64,000 bases of DNA from positions 335,808-399,807 of the forward strand of contig JAOZIH010000001.1 of the NCBI GenBank assembly GCA_026014545.1, read 5' to 3'. Each line of letters begins with the position of its first letter. Position 1 is the stretch's first letter. The notes below the pieces were generated by a model that worked only from the letters and a program-made list of their open reading frames with translations, had not been told where the DNA came from and searched no databases. This DNA is from Candidatus Bathyarchaeota archaeon. Lineage in GTDB: Archaea > Thermoproteota > Bathyarchaeia > Bathyarchaeales > Bathycorpusculaceae. The position numbers were made by a program, and so were the translations under genes. Below, one piece after another: positions 16,708-47,936 of the stretch.

Positions 16708-17415
16708 GTGAAGCTTGTCATTCACTGGAGCGGCGGTAAAGAGTGCTGCTTGGCGCTTCATAAGATGATCAAGCAGGGTCATGAAGTTGCCTATTTGCTC
16801 TCGTACATTTATACGGAGCCATACATTTTTCACAGCGTTCCCTTGATGGAGTTGCAGTCTAAGACTTTAGGTATCCCACACGTGAAGGTTAAAATTAAAC
16901 GTGCCTACGAGGATATTCTCGCGACGCTTGCGCGGCTTAACAAGGAGGAAGGCGTTGAAGGCTTTGTCACCGGCGACATTGTAGGCGCCGGCTGCGCGCA
17001 AGTTCATCAGACCTACTATGATGCTATGTGCGAGCAGCTGGGCATGAAGCTAATTATGCCTAACGAGAATCCATCCAGAAACACTTACGACGTGTTGGCT
17101 GAAGAGATTGCCGCGGGAATAAGGCCTCTGATGAACTGTATCAATTTGGATCACTTTGGCGAAGAATGGCTGGGCCGTGTGCTTGATGAATCTGCCATTA
17201 AAGAGTTGAAGGCGCTGGCGGACAAGCAGGGAATAGATGTTTGCAGTGAGGATGGCAGAGGCTTCCACACCATGGTGCTGGATGCACCGCTTTTTAGGGA
17301 ACGCATAGAAATCGGCAAGTTCAAGAAGAAGAAATTTAAGGAGAAGGCGAAGCACTGGAAAAGAAACTGGCTTTACATGGACATTAAAGAGGCATTTCTA
17401 AAGCCCAAGAAGTAG
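16708..17415 (+). CDS. Dph6-like diphthine--ammonia ligase (ATP-PPase family)
   Basis: ATP-pyrophosphatase-type protein of the family that includes Dph6, which amidates diphthine on EF-2 as the last step of diphthamide formation. The P-loop is HWSGGKECCLALHKM (SGGK; the usual following Asp is Glu). The family block EGFVTGDIVGAGCAQVHQTYYDAMCEQLG and the conserved EDGRGFHTMVLDAPLF follow in part. GTG 16708 start, 235 residues. It matters here because an EF-2 paralogue lacking the target histidine is encoded at 42468. Other COG2102 members have unassigned substrates, so the exact role is not proven. Confidence 0.82.
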   Translation: MKLVIHWSGGKECCLALHKMIKQGHEVAYLLSYIYTEPYIFHSVPLMELQSKTLGIPHVKVKIKRAYEDILATLARLNKEEGVEGFVTGDIVGAGCAQVHQTYYDAMCEQLGMKLIMPNENPSRNTYDVLAEEIAAGIRPLMNCINLDHFGEEWLGRVLDESAIKELKALADKQGIDVCSEDGRGFHTMVLDAPLFRERIEIGKFKKKKFKEKAKHWKRNWLYMDIKEAFLKPKK

Positions 17416-35164: not shown

Positions 35165-36346
35165 TTACAGCGCCTTGAAGGCTTCGAACCAGCGGTTATA
35201 CATTGCCAGCATGTCCAATGAGACGCTTGGCTTACGCTCTTCCAGTATCTGCTTAAAGTCGTTCATTGTTATGGGCCGTGGCTTAGCTGCCTTGTCCATG
35301 GCTTTTCCTGACTCGAAGAATTCGCCTATTATCTTCAGTTGTGCTGATTGGCACACGTCGCGTATGTCGCTGCCTGAAAAGCCCTCGGAAAGCCTTGCCA
35401 GTTCGTGCAGATCCACATCTGGGGCTATTTGGAGATTGGCGGTGTAGAGCTTAAGCATCATCAATCTGGTATGGTGGTCAGGTAGCGGCACGAGAATTCT
35501 TTTTTGGAAGCGCCGTATAAACGCCCAGTCCAAGTCCCATGGCTTGTTGGTGGCGCCGATAACGTAGACGTGTAGGTTCTTGCCTTTGTCCACAATGCCA
35601 TCCATTTCTTTGAGGAACTGGTTGCGGACGCGGATTTCGCCGCCGACCTCGTTTTGATGCTGCCCCATCAGCGAGTCCAGCTCGTCAACGAAGACGATGG
35701 CAGGTTTGCCTTCATTTGAGGACTTGCGTGCTGAATTGAAAAGTTTAGCAACATTCTGCTCTGCTTCGCCAAGCCACTTGGACATAATCGACGCTGCGTC
35801 TATGGAGTAGAAGTTAGCGTCTATTTCTGTGGCAACGGCGGCGGCAAGCAGTGTCTTACCGCATCCAGGCGGCCCGAAAAGCAGAATGCCCCTAGGCCAG
35901 CCGAGCGGAAACAGGTCTGGTCTTTGCACGGGGTAGACTATGGCTTCTTTGACGGCTTTTTTAGCCATGTCCAAACCCACCACTTCAGACCAGTTTACTT
36001 TGGGCTTTTCGGTGACAACAAGCTCCTCGCCTTGTTTTCCTCCGCTTGGGCCTCCGCCTTCGGTGGCTGTTTCTCCGCCTTCGCCGCCATTGTTAGATTC
36101 AGCCCGCAGTTCGCTAGGCGAAACCGAGCCTTGCAAGACTTTGATTCTCTCCTGATACGCGATGGCTCTCTGAACGTAAACTTTGTTCAGGCTGTAATCA
36201 GGATAGAGCTGCACAAGCTGCAGTAGGCTCTCTATGGCCTTTTGATACATAGTTATAGCTCTTCCTTTTGCGCCCTGCTTGTCCAAGCGAACCGCGTCTA
36301 ACGCGTAAGCGGTCGCGGCCTTTTCAAGTTCATGCGAAGCACTCAT
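35165..36346 (-). CDS. cdvC: CdvC / Vps4-like AAA ATPase
   Basis: Disassembles ESCRT-III (CdvB) polymers during archaeal cell division. An N-terminal MIT domain (residues about 1-75, AKGRAITMYQKAIESLLQLV) binds CdvB tails; a Ser/Gly-rich linker follows. The AAA core has Walker A GPPGCGKTLLAAA, Walker B IVFVDELDSL, the sensor ATNKPWDLD with arginine RRFQKRI, and a Vps4-type C-terminal helix (LDMLAMYNRWFEAF). ATG 36346 is preceded by AAAGGTG. It is the last gene of the cdv operon and 16 bases from cdvB. Confidence 0.95.
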   Translation of the reverse strand: MSASHELEKAATAYALDAVRLDKQGAKGRAITMYQKAIESLLQLVQLYPDYSLNKVYVQRAIAYQERIKVLQGSVSPSELRAESNNGGEGGETATEGGGPSGGKQGEELVVTEKPKVNWSEVVGLDMAKKAVKEAIVYPVQRPDLFPLGWPRGILLFGPPGCGKTLLAAAVATEIDANFYSIDAASIMSKWLGEAEQNVAKLFNSARKSSNEGKPAIVFVDELDSLMGQHQNEVGGEIRVRNQFLKEMDGIVDKGKNLHVYVIGATNKPWDLDWAFIRRFQKRILVPLPDHHTRLMMLKLYTANLQIAPDVDLHELARLSEGFSGSDIRDVCQSAQLKIIGEFFESGKAMDKAAKPRPITMNDFKQILEERKPSVSLDMLAMYNRWFEAFKAL

Positions 36347-36361
36347 GCGCTTTCACCTTTC

Positions 36362-37258
36362 TCACTCAGGAGATTTTATTTCGATTTTTATTTTCCCTTG
36401 GTTCCCAAGGTTTTCAAGAGCTTTCTCTATTTCTTCATAGGAAGTTTTCAAATCAACTGAGCAACGGGTTAAATCTATCTCGCCATTGCTCTTCCGCACG
36501 TACTCGAGAAGCGCATCCTCAAGGGAGGGCTTCTCAACCTTCAACGAGATTTCTTTAATCTCGGATTTCTTGTAAGAAATCAGGGTTTCTGAAGAATTGA
36601 AACCAAGCTCATCAGCAGCCTTACGCCCAATTATCTGCGAAGAAGTCGCTGAAAGCGCAACCATCTCCTTTATCGGCGCAGCCTTCTCTTCGGATGGAAG
36701 CGAAGTAGCTGGCGGTTCGGGAAGGGTCTCTGAAAGCTTGCGCTCAAGGAAGCTGGATACTTCACTTAGTATTTCCTCGCCTGCTTCGGTCTTTTTACCT
36801 ACAGTTATAAGCGACTCGTCGGCTGTGATCTTTGTGGCGTAAAGCGTTTCATGTATTGCTTCATTAACATTGTTAAGTTCTTTTGAAACTTCAGGTAGAA
36901 CTTGGAATAGTTCTGCTGAAACATTTTGGAGAAGCTTCAAAGCTGGCTTTAAATCAACAACAATGTCGCTTAGTTCCTTTATCGTTTCAAGCCGGAGAAT
37001 GACTCGTTCAATTGCCAGCTGCACATTATAAAGAAACTTGATTAACTTCCTAATCTCAGCAATCTCGTTGGCGCAGATTGCCGCTTTTTCCTTGTTATTC
37101 TTTTTTAAGGCATTCATGCAGGATTCAAAAAGTATGCGGTCTCTTTCCTTTAACCTGTAGCTTGCCTGCTCCAGCTTGTTCTGCTGAACTCGAAGGGTAA
37201 GTATTGATTTGGTGGCAACTTCCCGTATCGGTGGAGGGGTTGAATGGATTATACCCAT
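36362..37258 (-). CDS. cdvB: CdvB, long ESCRT-III protein with winged helix
   Basis: ESCRT-III-type Snf7 protein that forms the division ring. The Snf7 helical core spans residues about 15-165 (QQNKLEQASYRLKERDRILF, NVQLAIERVILRLET). A Pro-rich segment (LPEPPATSLP) resembles the MIM2 element bound by the MIT domain of CdvC. The C-terminal LLEYVRKSNGEIDLTRCSVDL and following helix fit the winged helix that binds the tail of CdvA. ATG 37258, preceded by GGAGGG. Lies 41 bases after cdvA. This is the canonical CdvB of the two in this operon. Confidence 0.9.
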   Translation of the reverse strand: MGIIHSTPPPIREVATKSILTLRVQQNKLEQASYRLKERDRILFESCMNALKKNNKEKAAICANEIAEIRKLIKFLYNVQLAIERVILRLETIKELSDIVVDLKPALKLLQNVSAELFQVLPEVSKELNNVNEAIHETLYATKITADESLITVGKKTEAGEEILSEVSSFLERKLSETLPEPPATSLPSEEKAAPIKEMVALSATSSQIIGRKAADELGFNSSETLISYKKSEIKEISLKVEKPSLEDALLEYVRKSNGEIDLTRCSVDLKTSYEEIEKALENLGNQGKIKIEIKSPE

Positions 37259-41586: not shown

Positions 41587-42471
41587 TCACACGCCGATTT
41601 TGCAGCCCGCAGCATTCATGCGTTCGTAATGGTACAGGTACTCCTGCGCGTAACCAGCATACTGGCCGAAGTATTCTCTGCCGAAGGCATTAAGCCTCAT
41701 GTATTCGGCGCTGCTTAAACACTCTTTTCCCAAAAGTTTCTTTGCAAGCTCGCGCGGCAACATATGCCCATAGTGGTTCACTATTACACGCGCAATCCAC
41801 CTGTCCACTGGAAAAGCTTCCAGTTTATCCAGCGAAAACAGCAAGACACAGTCAGCCACTTTCGGGCCGACGCCGGGCAAAGTGCAAAGCTGCTTCTTCG
41901 CTTGCTCGTAGGGCAGCTGCCGCAGACTTTCCAGCATGAATCTGCCTTCGAAAATCTGCTTTGAAGTTTCCAGCACAAAGCGTGCGCGGTAGCCCAAGCC
42001 ACACTCGGCCAACTGCTGCACCCTGGCGCTCGCAAGCGTTTCAGGTGTTGGAAAAGTGAAGAACTCCATGCCGTCCAGAGTCGTTTTTTCTCCGAACTTT
42101 CGCGAGAGATTCAACAGCATGCGCTTGATTGCGGGGATACTCTTGTATGTTGCGCAGATGTAGGAGATGAGGCATTCCCATGGGTCCTGCCGAATTATGC
42201 GCATGCCCCAAAACTCCCGAAGCGCCGCCCGAATGTAGTCATCCTTGCCTATTTCAGCGCTGATCTTTGGTAAGTCGTCGCCTAAGCCGAAATAACGCTT
42301 AATGAACTGTTCACTCGCATTTGTAAACTCCAGCATATCACCGATTTGCCGTATCTTGAAAGCTCGGTCGCCTGTGACGCCATACCACCAGCCGCGAACC
42401 TTTTCCCAGCGGAACACTTGCCCGCAGCAGAGCGTAGCATCCAAGTTGAAAGGAGTATCGCCAAGCTTCAA
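41587..42471 (-). CDS. 8-oxoguanine DNA glycosylase, OGG1-like
   Basis: Bifunctional glycosylase/AP lyase that removes 8-oxoguanine. N-terminal OGG1-type domain (LDATLCCGQVFRWEKVRGWW), then the helix-hairpin-helix LPGVGPKVADCVLLFSLDK with the catalytic Lys in PKVADC, and the catalytic Asp in FPVDRW. This is the layout of OGG1 rather than the shorter AGOG type. 294 residues. Its start overlaps the stop of the EF-2 paralogue by 4 bases, so the two are co-transcribed, an odd pairing of DNA repair with a translation factor. Confidence 0.9.
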   Translation of the reverse strand: MKLGDTPFNLDATLCCGQVFRWEKVRGWWYGVTGDRAFKIRQIGDMLEFTNASEQFIKRYFGLGDDLPKISAEIGKDDYIRAALREFWGMRIIRQDPWECLISYICATYKSIPAIKRMLLNLSRKFGEKTTLDGMEFFTFPTPETLASARVQQLAECGLGYRARFVLETSKQIFEGRFMLESLRQLPYEQAKKQLCTLPGVGPKVADCVLLFSLDKLEAFPVDRWIARVIVNHYGHMLPRELAKKLLGKECLSSAEYMRLNAFGREYFGQYAGYAQEYLYHYERMNAAGCKIGV

Positions 42472-44627
42472 GGAGTCTCCTCCAAGAACCGCTCGGGCTT
42501 AGGCACATTTGGCGGCAGCCCTTTCCGTCTCCGAATTTCAGCTATGACCCGCGTCTCCAGCTTTTCAGGCAACCTTTCCCAGTGGCTGAAAATGTACTGC
42601 CAAAAAGCGCGGCCTGAAGTTGCGCCACGCAATTCCTCGGAGAGGCCGAAGGTTTCTGCAACTGGAATATAGCCCGATATAACCGTGGAAGCGCCTTTCT
42701 GCTCGAAGCAGGAGATTTTCCCGCGCCGGCTGCTGATTATACGTGAGCATTCGCCAGCCAACTCTGCGGGAACCGTTATGACCGTGCTGTAAACAGGCTC
42801 AAGCAGCATAGGTGTCGCCGTCAAAAAGGAGCTGAAAATTGCTTTGCCCACTCCACGCATAACTTCAGCGGGATCACGCTGCGCCGCGTTCTCGCTGAGC
42901 TGAACGCCCATTAGCTTAACTTGGACGCCGCGCATGGGCTCCCCGCAAAGCGGCCCCGCCTTGCAAGCAAAATCGAAGCCAGAAATTATGGGATTTAGAA
43001 CCTCTTGTAGGCGTTGAGGGCTTTCTGTGCAGTTCAATAGCAGGTTCTGGTTATCGTCAACTGCAAGCACACCCCACATGCGCTCTACGCTGGCTTTGTC
43101 CTGCTCAATCTGCCGCACAAGCGCCTCCGGCAAGGGCGATACCTGTACGGCAAAGCGGTTCTGCTTGTTAGGGCTTCTTGCCACGGCGATTATGCCTTCT
43201 TTGGCGGCAGTTTCACGGTAAACAACTCTCGGTGAAGAAGCAGCGATTTCTATGCCGCCGACGCGTTCCTTCAACAGTTTCAACGCCACCTCAAGATGCA
43301 ACGCGCCCACGCCGCTTAGGAGGTACTCGCCTGTCTCAGCGCTCACAGAAAGCGCAAGGTTAGGATCTTCCACCGCAAGTTTGCGCATAGCCTCAAAAAG
43401 CACGGGCAAATCCAGCGGGTTTTTAGGCTCAACAGCCACTGTAACCACGGGCTCCGCCACGTAGCGAATGCGCTCAAACGGCACAATGCCCTCTCGGTGC
43501 TCAGCTGCAATTATGGTTTCGCCTGCCTTAGCCAGCTGCAGCCCAGAGAAGGCAGCAATGTTGCCCGCTGATACCTGCGCCACGGGCTCTCTAAAGGCGC
43601 CCATGTAGATGTAAACTTGCTGGATGACGCATTCGGCCTGCGCGTTGACGAGATAGAAGCGGCTGCCACTTTTAACCATGCCCGAAAACACGCGGCAAGT
43701 GGCAATTAAGCCCGCAGCTGAGTCCTCTTGAACGCTTGTTACGCAGGCAACTGCTGGGCCGTTGTCGTCGCATTCAGCCATGGCTCGTCCAACCGCGGAG
43801 CCCACGTCGCCCTTCCATATTTTCGGTATGCGGTACTTCTGCGCTTCCAGAGGGCTTGGAAGATGCCTTACAGCCATGCCTAATATTGCCTTATGAAGCG
43901 GAAGCGTTTCAGCCAGTGTCTCGTGCGCCGCGCGATTATGCGCCGCCATTATGGCGCTGAAGTTTACATTCTGCTGGCGCGCCATGCCTATGGTGAAGCC
44001 CCATTTATGCAGAGCTGAGCCAAAGGCGACGTTGCCGCTGGCGGGATCAGCTTTCCATTTTTCTTTGAATTCCGGTTCTCCATAGAGGTCGATTAAATCG
44101 TTAAAACCGCGTATTATACGCGCAAACCTTTCCCGAATCTGGTTTTCCGTTAATTTCAGTTCAGTTATTAGGCGGTCTACTTTATTTATGAAGAGCACGG
44201 GGCGAACTCTTTCCTCAAGCGCTTGGCGCAGGACCACTTCTGTCTGTGGCATGATTTCCTCTACGGCGTCGATTACCACGATGGCTCCGTCTATGCTGCG
44301 CAGGGCGCGGGTAACTTTGCCTGTGAAATCCACATGCCCAGGCGTGTCCACCAAATTTATGATAAAGGCGCCGCTATCAGCGGCTTTGTATAGCAGGGAG
44401 ATGTTGGCGGTTTTCATGGTTATGCCGCGCTTCTGTTCCTCCTCGAGATAGTCGAGAACTCTGGCTGAGCCTGCGGCTTTTAGCGGCAGCAGCCCTGTAC
44501 CCGCCAGTAATGCATCTGTTAGTGTGGTTTTTCCATGGTCGATGTGAGCGATTATCCCCAAATTGCGAATAAGCGCTTTATTCGCCATCAAGATTAGAAT
44601 GTGGGGAATTTGTCTGAATTTCGGCAT
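42468..44627 (-). CDS. EF-2 paralogue lacking the diphthamide histidine
   Basis: Translocase-type GTPase of the EF-2 family. ATG 44627 gives MPKFRQIPHILILM, aligning with crenarchaeal EF-2; the frame extends to 44672 but includes the promoter. All G motifs are intact: AHIDHGKTTLTD, EEQKRGIT, DTPGHVDF and FINKVD. Domain IV should carry the diphthamide His in a HRGPAQI-like loop; here the loop reads ENAAQRDPAEVMRG, with Gln (codon 42879-42881) at that place. So it cannot be diphthamide-modified. It resembles the aEF-2p paralogues described in some archaea. ogg1 overlaps its end, and a kinase gene diverges from a shared dyad promoter. Confidence 0.9.
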   Translation of the reverse strand: MPKFRQIPHILILMANKALIRNLGIIAHIDHGKTTLTDALLAGTGLLPLKAAGSARVLDYLEEEQKRGITMKTANISLLYKAADSGAFIINLVDTPGHVDFTGKVTRALRSIDGAIVVIDAVEEIMPQTEVVLRQALEERVRPVLFINKVDRLITELKLTENQIRERFARIIRGFNDLIDLYGEPEFKEKWKADPASGNVAFGSALHKWGFTIGMARQQNVNFSAIMAAHNRAAHETLAETLPLHKAILGMAVRHLPSPLEAQKYRIPKIWKGDVGSAVGRAMAECDDNGPAVACVTSVQEDSAAGLIATCRVFSGMVKSGSRFYLVNAQAECVIQQVYIYMGAFREPVAQVSAGNIAAFSGLQLAKAGETIIAAEHREGIVPFERIRYVAEPVVTVAVEPKNPLDLPVLFEAMRKLAVEDPNLALSVSAETGEYLLSGVGALHLEVALKLLKERVGGIEIAASSPRVVYRETAAKEGIIAVARSPNKQNRFAVQVSPLPEALVRQIEQDKASVERMWGVLAVDDNQNLLLNCTESPQRLQEVLNPIISGFDFACKAGPLCGEPMRGVQVKLMGVQLSENAAQRDPAEVMRGVGKAIFSSFLTATPMLLEPVYSTVITVPAELAGECSRIISSRRGKISCFEQKGASTVISGYIPVAETFGLSEELRGATSGRAFWQYIFSHWERLPEKLETRVIAEIRRRKGLPPNVPKPERFLEETP

Positions 44628-44670: not shown

Positions 44671-44697
44671 ATATAAATGTATGAGATGCATACATTT
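44671..44697. promoter_or_regulatory. shared divergent promoter with a perfect 9-bp inverted repeat
   Basis: AAATGTATG (44675-44683) and CATACATTT (44689-44697) form a perfect dyad with a 5-base spacer. The TATA-like ATATAAATG (44671-44679) overlaps the left arm and lies at the right distance for the kinase ATG (44705) and, on the other strand, for the EF-2 paralogue ATG (44627). A regulator binding here would control both. Confidence 0.6.
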
Positions 44698-44704
44698 TAC
44701 TCTG

Positions 44705-45487
44705 ATGTCTGGAAAAGAGGAAAGATCGGCGAAAACAATCAGGGTTCATATTGAAAAGCTTAGTGAAGAACCCTACGCAGCTATTCTCTGCTACCCAAGA
44801 GCAAGCTACTTGGAACTGCGGAGCCGCATAGCGGAGCTCCGTGAACACGGCGTTAACGAGGTAGAATTTGCTGGAAGCACAGTAATTTCGAATGTGCCCG
44901 TGCTGGGAAAGGGGTTTGTAGGCGTCGTCATAGCCGCTTACTTGAATGGTCAGAAAGTGGCGTTGAAAATTCGCAGGGTGGACGCTGATCGGGCTAGTTT
45001 GCAGCAGGAAGCAGAGTTGCTTGCTAAGGCTAATGCCGTGCAGGTTGGGCCGCGATTAATAGGCGTAAGCAGGAACTTTCTTCTGATGCAGTACATCGAG
45101 GGCAAAGCACTGTTTGAGTGGCTGGCTACGCATAGAGAGAAAACGCTGGTAAGTGAAGTTTTAACTGACATTCTGGAGCAGTGCTGGCGTCTGGACCGCA
45201 TCGGCTTAGACCATGGTGAACTTAGTAATGCGCCGAAGCATCTTCTCATTGACACTGAGGCTAAGCCGTGGATTGTTGATTTTGAAACTGCAAGCTTAAG
45301 CCGAAGACCTGCGAATGTCACATCAGTTTGCCAGTTTCTTTTCACAAGCCACAGCGCAGTGGCGAGAGCAGTGGCAGAGGTGCTTGGCGAAAGAAACCGC
45401 GAAGCAATCATTGATGCGCTGAGACTTTATAAAAATGAGCGAACAAGGGAGAACTTTAGCCGCGTGATACAAGCGTGCCTTGCTTAA
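44705..45487 (+). CDS. predicted serine/threonine kinase (COG2112-like)
   Basis: A 260-residue atypical protein kinase of the archaeal family related to RIO/Bud32 kinases. A helical N-terminal region is followed by a Gly-rich loop (VLGKGFVGVVIAAYL), the ATP-binding Lys (QKVALKIRRVD), a catalytic loop LDHGELSNAPKH, and a metal motif IVDFETASLS replacing DFG. The start is ATG 44705, about 30 bases after the TATA element; an upstream ATG at 44681 would be too near. Divergent from the EF-2 paralogue, so it may phosphorylate a translation component; this is inference. Confidence 0.78.
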   Translation: MSGKEERSAKTIRVHIEKLSEEPYAAILCYPRASYLELRSRIAELREHGVNEVEFAGSTVISNVPVLGKGFVGVVIAAYLNGQKVALKIRRVDADRASLQQEAELLAKANAVQVGPRLIGVSRNFLLMQYIEGKALFEWLATHREKTLVSEVLTDILEQCWRLDRIGLDHGELSNAPKHLLIDTEAKPWIVDFETASLSRRPANVTSVCQFLFTSHSAVARAVAEVLGERNREAIIDALRLYKNERTRENFSRVIQACLA

Positions 45488-45756: not shown

Positions 45757-46842
45757 CTAAGCCAAAACTTCCTGCAGCCGCCCTTGCTCACGGGCTTCCT
45801 TCAGCTCAAGCGCTATGCGGCGCCCCATGTACATGTTTGGGCCATAGCGCAGGTAAGCGTATGGCGAGGTGCCGATGCCAACGTTTGTTCCAGCTACGAT
45901 GCGCGCTGAAATCTCGAACGTGTAAATTTTCAAGTCATCTGTCACCACCGTTTCCAAGCAGAAGGGCCCGATTATTCCTGGCGGCGCCAGCTCCCTAGCC
46001 TTTCTGTGCACGTTTTCGCCCATGCGCAGAAATTCAGGCAGCAACGACTCGCGCAGCACTATTGGGAAGTTGCCTACTATAGTGTACGTGGGATTCACGT
46101 CGATTTCCAGCTGCTCGCCCGCGGGAATTTTGCCTATCGCGTCCACTGCTGACTCGTACCGTCTATCCACTGCCAGAAGCTCCACATCATCCTTAATTAT
46201 CGAGCTGAAGTAGCTGGGGTAGACGTTAACGCCTAAGGCATATTCCTGCAAGTGAATTTTGCCGACGTCTTCTTCCCGGAGGAGCCCGCGCTTAACCATT
46301 TCACCAAACTTCTTGTAGAACGACTCCGGCGAGTTAGCTAAGAAGTAGCCTCTGCCGCCCTTCGCGCCAGGCAATTTAGCTATTACCAGCCGGTCTATGT
46401 CGTCGGGCGTTTTGAATGTCTCCGGCAAACGGAGGCCCGCTTGGCGCAACCACTCCTCTTGCGATTTGCGGTTAGCTTCCCAGTGGAGTAGCTGGCGGTT
46501 TCCGAACATGGGCACATAAAGGCTGTCGGTTAACTGCTCAGTGCTCAGGTAAGCTGTGAACGAGCCATGCGGGATCAGCACAGTATTTAATATGCGAAGT
46601 TTTTCCTGAAGCGCAGGATTCAGCAGCTCGGTAAAGTCTTTAACGATGATTAGCTCGTCGGCTAGGGGAAATTTCTTGTAGAGTATGGTGTCCTGCTCTT
46701 TGCAGATGCAAACGGTGCGGAAGCCCTCTTCTTTGGCGCCCTTAAAGATGTTCAGGGAAGAATGCGAGCCTAAAGTGCCTATTGCCAGCTTATCCAGATT
46801 ATACTTGCCGAGTATTTCAGCTATGTCTTTGCCGGTTATCAC
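45757..46842 (-). CDS. purP: PurP, formate-dependent FAICAR synthetase, copy 1
   Basis: PurP uses ATP and formate to make FAICAR from AICAR in archaeal purine synthesis. The ATP-grasp fold starts LAIGTLGSHSSLNIFKGAKEEGF, with VPMFGNRQLLHWE, IAKLPGAKGGRGYFLANSP, the substrate loop LQEYALGVNVYPSYF and PPGIIGPFCLETVV/FEISARIVAGTNVG. 361 residues. A 4-base overlap joins it to copy 2. Two adjacent PurP paralogues are encoded; copy 1 has the ATP-binding GAKGGRGY, copy 2 a variant. Confidence 0.93.
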   Translation of the reverse strand: MITGKDIAEILGKYNLDKLAIGTLGSHSSLNIFKGAKEEGFRTVCICKEQDTILYKKFPLADELIIVKDFTELLNPALQEKLRILNTVLIPHGSFTAYLSTEQLTDSLYVPMFGNRQLLHWEANRKSQEEWLRQAGLRLPETFKTPDDIDRLVIAKLPGAKGGRGYFLANSPESFYKKFGEMVKRGLLREEDVGKIHLQEYALGVNVYPSYFSSIIKDDVELLAVDRRYESAVDAIGKIPAGEQLEIDVNPTYTIVGNFPIVLRESLLPEFLRMGENVHRKARELAPPGIIGPFCLETVVTDDLKIYTFEISARIVAGTNVGIGTSPYAYLRYGPNMYMGRRIALELKEAREQGRLQEVLA

Positions 46843-47936
46843 GTTACCACTTCCGCAAGTCTTCCCGCTTTTACGGCTTGCTTTATCTCCATGGCTACGC
46901 GTCTACCCGGACCGACTTCGAAGCCGTACTTGTACTTCATGTAAGGCGACGTGGGCTCGACACAGGGGCAGCCGGGCACACGCGGACTCACATCGAAAAC
47001 GTAGAACTCCAAGTCCTTGGTTACGGCGCCCTGCAAAGCGAACAGGCCAATCATGCCTGGCGGATACTCCTTCTTGCATATTTCCACGAAACGTTCAGCG
47101 GCGGTGAAAACCTTCTCCAGCTGGCTTTCCCGCATGGTCGCGCCCATGTGGCCGATCTCGATGTTCTGTGTTGGTATATTCAGCTCCAGCTGCTCGCTAG
47201 CTGGCAGGTCAAGCACGCCGTCAAGGTCTGTTTGCACTCGGCGGTCAAACCCTAAAAGGTCTATCTCATCAGTTAGGGGCGACCAGAAAAAGTTGGCGTT
47301 GAACTTGGCGCCTATAACGTACTCCTCTATAACCGCGTGCCGTAAGGCTTCTTCACTGATTATTCCCTTGCTTATACGCTCCGCCGCCTTTTTCTCATAC
47401 TCCTCAGGCGATGAAGCATAAAAGAAGGCCCGCTCTATGGCGCGCTCCTTCTCAGGAACCTTGACTATTACTAAGCGGTCAATTTCGCTGGGCGACCGGA
47501 AAATTTTAGGCGTGGCTATGCCGGCCTTCTGAAGCAGATACTGCTGGTTCCGCGGCGTATTGCGCTCTTCCGTTCTGAGCATGTACCGGTTTCCCATTAG
47601 CGGCACAGCGAATTCTTCTTCTATGCTCTCGTAGCCCGCGTACACCGAAAAAGAACGGTTTGGAACGAAAATAGTGCATAGGTCTGTTAATTTTTTCACG
47701 TTGCCTTCGCTTGTTATATCCGAAAACTTGTCTAAGAGTATGATGTGATCGAAGAGATTGCGGTAGTATTTGGTGTAAGTTTTATCTCTGCCCTTTTGGC
47801 AGACCACAACTGTTTCGAAGCCTTCCTGCTTGGCACCGGAAGCTATCTCAAGCGCCGAGTGCGAACCTAAAACGCCGATGCGAATTCGATGCGGATCATA
47901 ACTTTCTATTACTTCTCGTATTTTTTTGTCCATCAT
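46839..47936 (-). CDS. PurP paralogue, copy 2
   Basis: A 365-residue paralogue of copy 1 with the same fold: IRIGVLGSHSALEIASGAKQEGF, VPLMGNRYMLRTE, the ATP-binding segment VKVPEKERAIERAFFYASSP where copy 1 has the glycine-rich KGGRGYF, IEEYVIGAKFNANFFWSP and FDVSPRVPGCPCVEPTSPY. The loss of glycines near the ATP loop and the distinct end suggest altered catalysis or a partner subunit. Starts at ATG 47936 or 47933, overlapping the purC stop. Similar paired PurPs occur in other archaea. Confidence 0.85.
   Translation of the reverse strand: MMDKKIREVIESYDPHRIRIGVLGSHSALEIASGAKQEGFETVVVCQKGRDKTYTKYYRNLFDHIILLDKFSDITSEGNVKKLTDLCTIFVPNRSFSVYAGYESIEEEFAVPLMGNRYMLRTEERNTPRNQQYLLQKAGIATPKIFRSPSEIDRLVIVKVPEKERAIERAFFYASSPEEYEKKAAERISKGIISEEALRHAVIEEYVIGAKFNANFFWSPLTDEIDLLGFDRRVQTDLDGVLDLPASEQLELNIPTQNIEIGHMGATMRESQLEKVFTAAERFVEICKKEYPPGMIGLFALQGAVTKDLEFYVFDVSPRVPGCPCVEPTSPYMKYKYGFEVGPGRRVAMEIKQAVKAGRLAEVVT

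Follow-up and report, generated by a model that had tools for sequence, protein, structure and literature searches.

Introduction

EF-2 paralogues without diphthamide (aEF-2p) have been described in archaea that lack dph genes (Narrowe et al., 2018, as reported in PMC10307638 and PMC9887622). As far as these citing papers describe them, they are like the gene presented here in that a second archaeal EF-2 is missing the residues for diphthamide modification. This gene lies in a window of 64,000 nucleotides (the whole stretch of DNA that was analysed) belonging to a Bathyarchaeia MAG of 1.86 Mb, which is 98% complete.

Eukaryotic EFL1/Ria1, which acts in eIF6 release and is without diphthamide, is an EF-2-derived GTPase working on the free large subunit, and the bacterial and mitochondrial EF-G1 and EF-G2 are two translocase paralogues, one of which is specialised away from translocation. 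In archaea, work on the 50S subunit off translating ribosomes is a moonlighting activity of aEF-2, in one case of the unmodified protein: recombinant aEF-2 without diphthamide is a ribosome-dependent GTPase that frees aIF6 from the 50S subunit in a GTP-dependent manner, as studied in Sulfolobus, archaea being without Efl1 (PMC8024482), and aEF-2 together with PurH dimerises 50S subunits in Methanosarcina (PMC12605026). It is in the A site that the diphthamide-bearing tip itself works, against the duplex of codon and anticodon (PMC8789840). In our literature search, no paper describing diphthamide-less EF-2 paralogues in Bathyarchaeia was found, the study of Narrowe et al. (2018) being known to us through the papers that cite it.

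The EF-2 gene of the window

We call A the clade of the window gene, A- those of its members with a degenerate tip, A+ those that keep the His loop, and B the second clade of EF-2 found in these genomes. The features are, in window positions:

41587..42471, minus strand: OGG-type DNA glycosylase, downstream of EF-2 (an ancestral pairing, found also with canonical EF-2)
42468..44627, minus strand: resident EF-2 of 719 aa, clade A, A- type (degenerate domain IV tip)
42852..43235, minus strand: domain IV, approximately residues 465-592, where loss concentrates
42855..42896, minus strand: degenerate diphthamide loop, residues 578-591, SENAAQRDPAEVMR versus HEDPVHRGPAQIMP
42879..42881, minus strand: Gln583 codon at the diphthamide histidine position (44627 - 3 x 582 = 42881)
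43161..43163, minus strand: Gln489 in the second tip loop of domain IV (SPNKHN to SPNKQN)
44175..44186, minus strand: G4 motif NKVD, residues 148-151, intact
44334..44348, minus strand: G3 motif DTPGH, residues 94-98, including the catalytic His, intact
44523..44549, minus strand: G1 motif AHIDHGKTT, residues 27-35, intact
44681..45487, plus strand: Bud32/RIO-like kinase, divergent neighbour of EF-2, marking the ancestral EF-2 locus

The open reading frame at 42468-44627 on the minus strand translates into a full-length EF-2 of 719 residues. Relatives that begin with MPRFKQ..EILKLM support its start at 44627, although a longer ATG-initiated frame extends to 44672. As originally noted, the GTPase motifs AHIDHGKTTL, DTPGH and NKVD are all read intact in this translation. 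With 757.3 bits over residues 6-705, the protein exceeds the curated cut-off (738.45) of the NCBIfam aEF-2 equivalog profile TIGR00490, a full-length match that makes it a member of this family. One feature of aEF-2, the diphthamide histidine of the HRGPAQI loop in domain IV, is replaced by Gln583. In phmmer alignments, ENAAQRDPAEV aligns with the loops EDPAHRGPAQL (PDB 8hl1) and EDNVHRGPAQI (PDB 5h7j) of two solved archaeal EF-2s, and Q583 falls exactly on the diphthamide histidine; the glutamine first read at codon 42879-42881 is thus confirmed both by alignment and by codon arithmetic. As there is no histidine anywhere in residues 573-600, a shifted diphthamide His is excluded and the claim of a loss stands. 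Domain IV is also shortened, about 15-20 aa being missing around residues 505-515.

The AF2 model of the protein has an entire EF-2 fold (pLDDT 85), and EF-2 bound to 50S dimers (PDB 9ou7) is among its best full-length structural matches. In a PDB sequence search, the window EF-2 is nearer to aEF-2 (702 bits) than to EFL1 (297 bits for structure 5anb), and is thus no EFL1/Ria1 by sequence.

A second EF-2 and the diphthamide genes of the host genome

The host genome carries a second EF-2, B (G000:C6:88740-90947), which is 45% identical to the window EF-2, has a loop (DPVHRGPAQI) with a canonical HRGPAQI, and adjoins an apparent ribosomal protein gene. Profile searches of the genome find Dph2 on contig C23 (308 bits) and Dph5 on C15 (296 bits), both above cut-off, and a true Dph6, also above cut-off (275.5 bits) and with the motif GEGGEIE, is present on C6. 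The suggestion that diphthamide might be made on another EF-2 is thereby borne out, and the window gene is not the sole EF-2 of a genome without dph genes. Given a second, His-loop EF-2 and a complete dph set, the role of main translocase very probably does not fall to the window EF-2. The association of an EF-2 gene without the diphthamide site and a canonical one is as for aEF-2p; the absence of dph genes that goes with it (PMC10307638) is not found here, Dph2, Dph5 and Dph6 being present.

The gene originally put forward as evidence for the pathway was the wrong one. The DUF71 gene at 16708-17415 (plus strand), one of five in the host genome, reaches 110.3 bits with the Dph6 profile TIGR03679, whose cut-off is 197.3, and EDGRGFH in its product replaces the EGGE-x-E188 motif of Dph6. 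EGGE-x-E is the Dph6 catalytic motif (PMC3541065), so that the catalytic Glu motif is gone, and the pattern, with His at position 188, is that of non-Dph6 (B12-type) proteins according to the motif given in the same paper. We therefore rejected this gene as a proof of diphthamide.

The ancestral locus and the newcomer

In the window, the genes are ordered purP-purP-kinase, then EF-2 and OGG in divergent orientation to the kinase. The single, His-bearing EF-2 of G006 is flanked by the same purP-kinase and OGG genes in the same order, and in ten relatives (G004, G009, G017, G024, G029, G031, G121-G123 and G130) B is placed between the kinase and A or adjoins A in head-to-head orientation. The EF-2 tree places the window gene inside Bathyarchaeia EF-2: the A- genes are nested within the His-bearing EF-2s of the order, and B forms a single clade outside, strongly supported and with a long stem, which is found only within the order (families f1 and f9; one genome each in f6 and f7). 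Clade A is the usual sole EF-2 in most of the order. From the microsynteny shared with the EF-2 of G006 and the insertion of B on the kinase side, we conclude that the window locus is ancestral and holds the order's resident EF-2, with B as the newcomer. Calling the window gene a paralogue was thus correct in that a second EF-2 exists, but not in that it would be a derived extra copy by descent.

B may have arisen by transfer or by an old duplication. A clear horizontal transfer was considered and not retained: B branches with crenarchaeal EF-2 in the tree, yet monophyly of B and the resident A is not rejected (p-AU 0.20). About 200 genomes of the phylum yielded no close relative of B from outside the order.

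As most of the genomes are MAGs, A- or B could be imagined to come from another organism through faulty binning or assembly. The chance of this is negligible, since A- sits in a 508-kb contig with conserved microsynteny, both copies are present in genomes assembled into one or very few contigs (G129 in one, G007 in two, G114 in three), and the ten relatives mentioned above carry A and B head-to-head on one contig.

The coupling with OGG1 was initially read as a hint of a new role. The 4-base overlap with EF-2 does exist, provided that OGG starts at TTG, but co-transcription was rejected as a functional hint, the pairing being ancestral and common to His-bearing EF-2s such as that of G006.

On the other side of the locus, the two purP genes (archaeal AICAR formyltransferase; 45757-47936, minus strand) stand beside the kinase, EF-2 and OGG in an order that is kept in many relatives, and recall the PurH-aEF2 complex that dimerises 50S subunits in M. 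acetivorans; a genome search gave no match to PurH in the host. Elsewhere in the window (35165-37258, minus strand), a gene for a CdvC-like AAA ATPase lies beside a CdvB-like ESCRT-III gene.

Loss of the loop among relatives

Among relatives, 60 orthologues in 59 genomes carry a degenerate loop, and 63 other clade A genes have a canonical one. In the 131 genomes with EF-2 genes read, with G158, which keeps the His, reassigned by hand to the canonical class, 58 have both A and B, and A is degenerate in 49 of these; 63 have A but no B, and A is canonical in 53 of them. This association may partly reflect shared ancestry, given the few loss events. Two or three loop losses, nested among B-bearing lineages, are needed by the tree, and a phylogeny-corrected comparison of B presence with loop loss has only two independent pairs and no power. 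The loops of B are canonical in every B gene. Nine A genes are still canonical despite B, mostly adjacent to it, and these surviving intermediates with two canonical EF-2s make the order of events readable.

Ten A- draft genomes have no match to B, and assembly gaps explain at least five of them. In four (G050, G056, G059 and G139), the essential ArgRS gene that adjoins B in sister genomes is also missing, and in G138 it is cut by a contig end, so that B has probably fallen into an assembly gap in these five; G059 is also without Dph2 and Dph5 matches, which we attribute to the same gap and do not take as a true loss. We therefore did not retain A- as the sole EF-2 of all ten genomes, the other five being G134 and four g12 genomes. 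The four genomes with the missing ArgRS are MAGs of genus g45, 92-97% complete; in sister genomes this ArgRS adjoins uS19 and B, and the recurrent gap may bias marker-gene surveys.

Some genomes depart from the common pattern. G042 (family f7) has two clade A EF-2 genes, L040 and L041, both with a canonical His loop; G127 has B and two different A- genes, L238 and L239, with a contamination of 8% and maybe two strains. In the same phylum, the EF-2 matches of two genomes of genus g94 (G180:C44 and G201:C17) contain one TGA within the aligned region, which is maybe only the terminal stop.

At the histidine site, A- genes have Q, C, L, Y, M, N, E, D or A, or else deletions of 1-3 residues, and some keep a His inside a ruined loop (ENPEHLDPVE). 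This bears on whether A- could be a backup translocase that still translocates without diphthamide, as a stress- or starvation-specific or a toxin-resistant EF-2. All five domains are predicted to fold in the AF2 model and the GTPase motifs are intact; moreover, dph-less archaea live on unmodified EF-2 (PMC10307638), and Korarchaeum retains the His without dph genes (PMC3541065). We nevertheless consider such a role unlikely, because the changes go beyond the His to each of the two tip loops and to 15-20 aa of domain IV, and because the A- loop is free in both sequence and length, which is unexpected for a loop contacting the codon-anticodon duplex.

Selection on the degenerate copy

Loss is concentrated in domain IV: among the sites that are invariant in A+ and B, 15 of 25 are lost in A- in domain IV, versus 2 of 78 in the G domain (p ~9e-10). 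H583 is kept in 3% of the A- genes, and H489 in 5%, versus 99% of A+ and 100% of B. Domain IV evolves 2.2-fold faster than the G domain in A-, versus 1.4-1.5-fold in A+ and B. Practically every A- gene preserves motifs G1-G4, the catalytic His of DTPGH included. Residues have also been newly fixed in the main A- clade: E588, which stands beside the dead diphthamide loop, is found in 95% of its genes versus 0% in A+, and K595 in 95% versus 8%. The median dN/dS is 0.15 for A- (0.08-0.2), 0.08 for A+ and 0.05 for B; in the G007/G036 pair, it is 0.140 for A- and 0.011 for B.

A- could be a redundant relic, slowly heading for loss and devoid of any specific new function. It evolves faster and under weaker selection than B or A+, and A is gone outright from several B-bearing genomes of high completeness (e.g., G013, 100%; G003 and G005, 95-97%), which implies that the cell can do without the job of A- or leave it to B. 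Decay is all the same improbable, since the 60 A- open reading frames are intact and full-length in two families with dN/dS of 0.08-0.2, the G domain (93% of invariant sites kept) is as conserved as in the functional A+, and new residues have been fixed. From these sequence comparisons, A- shows signs of a changed protein still under selection rather than of a pseudogene. Constraint on A- is relaxed, its dN/dS being roughly threefold that of B, and its function may be minor or decaying.

Discussion

The reading that we favour, and hold to be probable on the comparative evidence, is that of a displaced EF-2: B would be the translocase, and A- a ribosome-dependent GTPase kept for a job on the 50S side. 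The entry of B into the genome would have relieved the resident EF-2 of translocation, B being served by Dph2, Dph5 and Dph6, and the old EF-2 has kept its GTPase and ribosome-binding domains while shedding the domain IV tip that reaches the decoding centre. With this tip lost, A- cannot be modified with diphthamide and would probably be poor in translocation; with its G, III and V domains, it would be expected to retain binding at the factor site and GTP hydrolysis. We thus infer a division of labour between the two copies and a loss of translocase activity in A-.

Which job A- might do on the 50S side is a matter of speculation. Candidates needing the 50S side alone are the release of aIF6, the splitting or recycling of ribosomes, and the holding of idle 50S subunits (hibernation). 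Both the release of aIF6 by unmodified EF-2 and the dimerisation of 50S with PurH would fit a tipless A- acting on this subunit. In these moonlighting cases, a single canonical EF-2 does all, whereas here the roles may be split over two genes. A more specific and rather doubtful possibility is that Bathyarchaeia have independently evolved an EFL1-like GTPase for 50S maturation or recycling, after the acquisition of a new translocase had released the resident EF-2 from work at the decoding centre. The far weaker sequence match to EFL1/Ria1 and the independent origin would make this a functional analogy only. Unlike EF-G1/EF-G2, a bacterial family without diphthamide, the split proposed here comes after the entry of a second, divergent EF-2, and its mark is the loss of the domain IV tip.

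Compared with aEF-2p, as far as it is described in the papers citing its discovery, this case differs in that Dph2, Dph5 and Dph6 are kept together with a canonical EF-2, that it is the resident gene which has degenerated, and that intermediates with two canonical EF-2s survive. As the window gene nests in Bathyarchaeia EF-2, a common origin with the aEF-2p of Asgard archaea, korarchaea and Geoarchaea is unlikely.

As a rule, EF-2 is universal and present in a single copy, and it serves as a phylogenetic marker; in the genomes studied here, the resident gene seems to have been displaced from its main job, and the EF-2 taken as first match from these genomes may be the wrong copy for marker trees and diphthamide surveys. 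The tipless old copy persists in about sixty sampled genomes, whose cells still carry the diphthamide pathway. These genes form a natural separation-of-function series, indicating which parts of EF-2 serve work other than translocation, and A- lets the claims of aIF6 release and 50S parking be tested on a protein that keeps perhaps only those functions.
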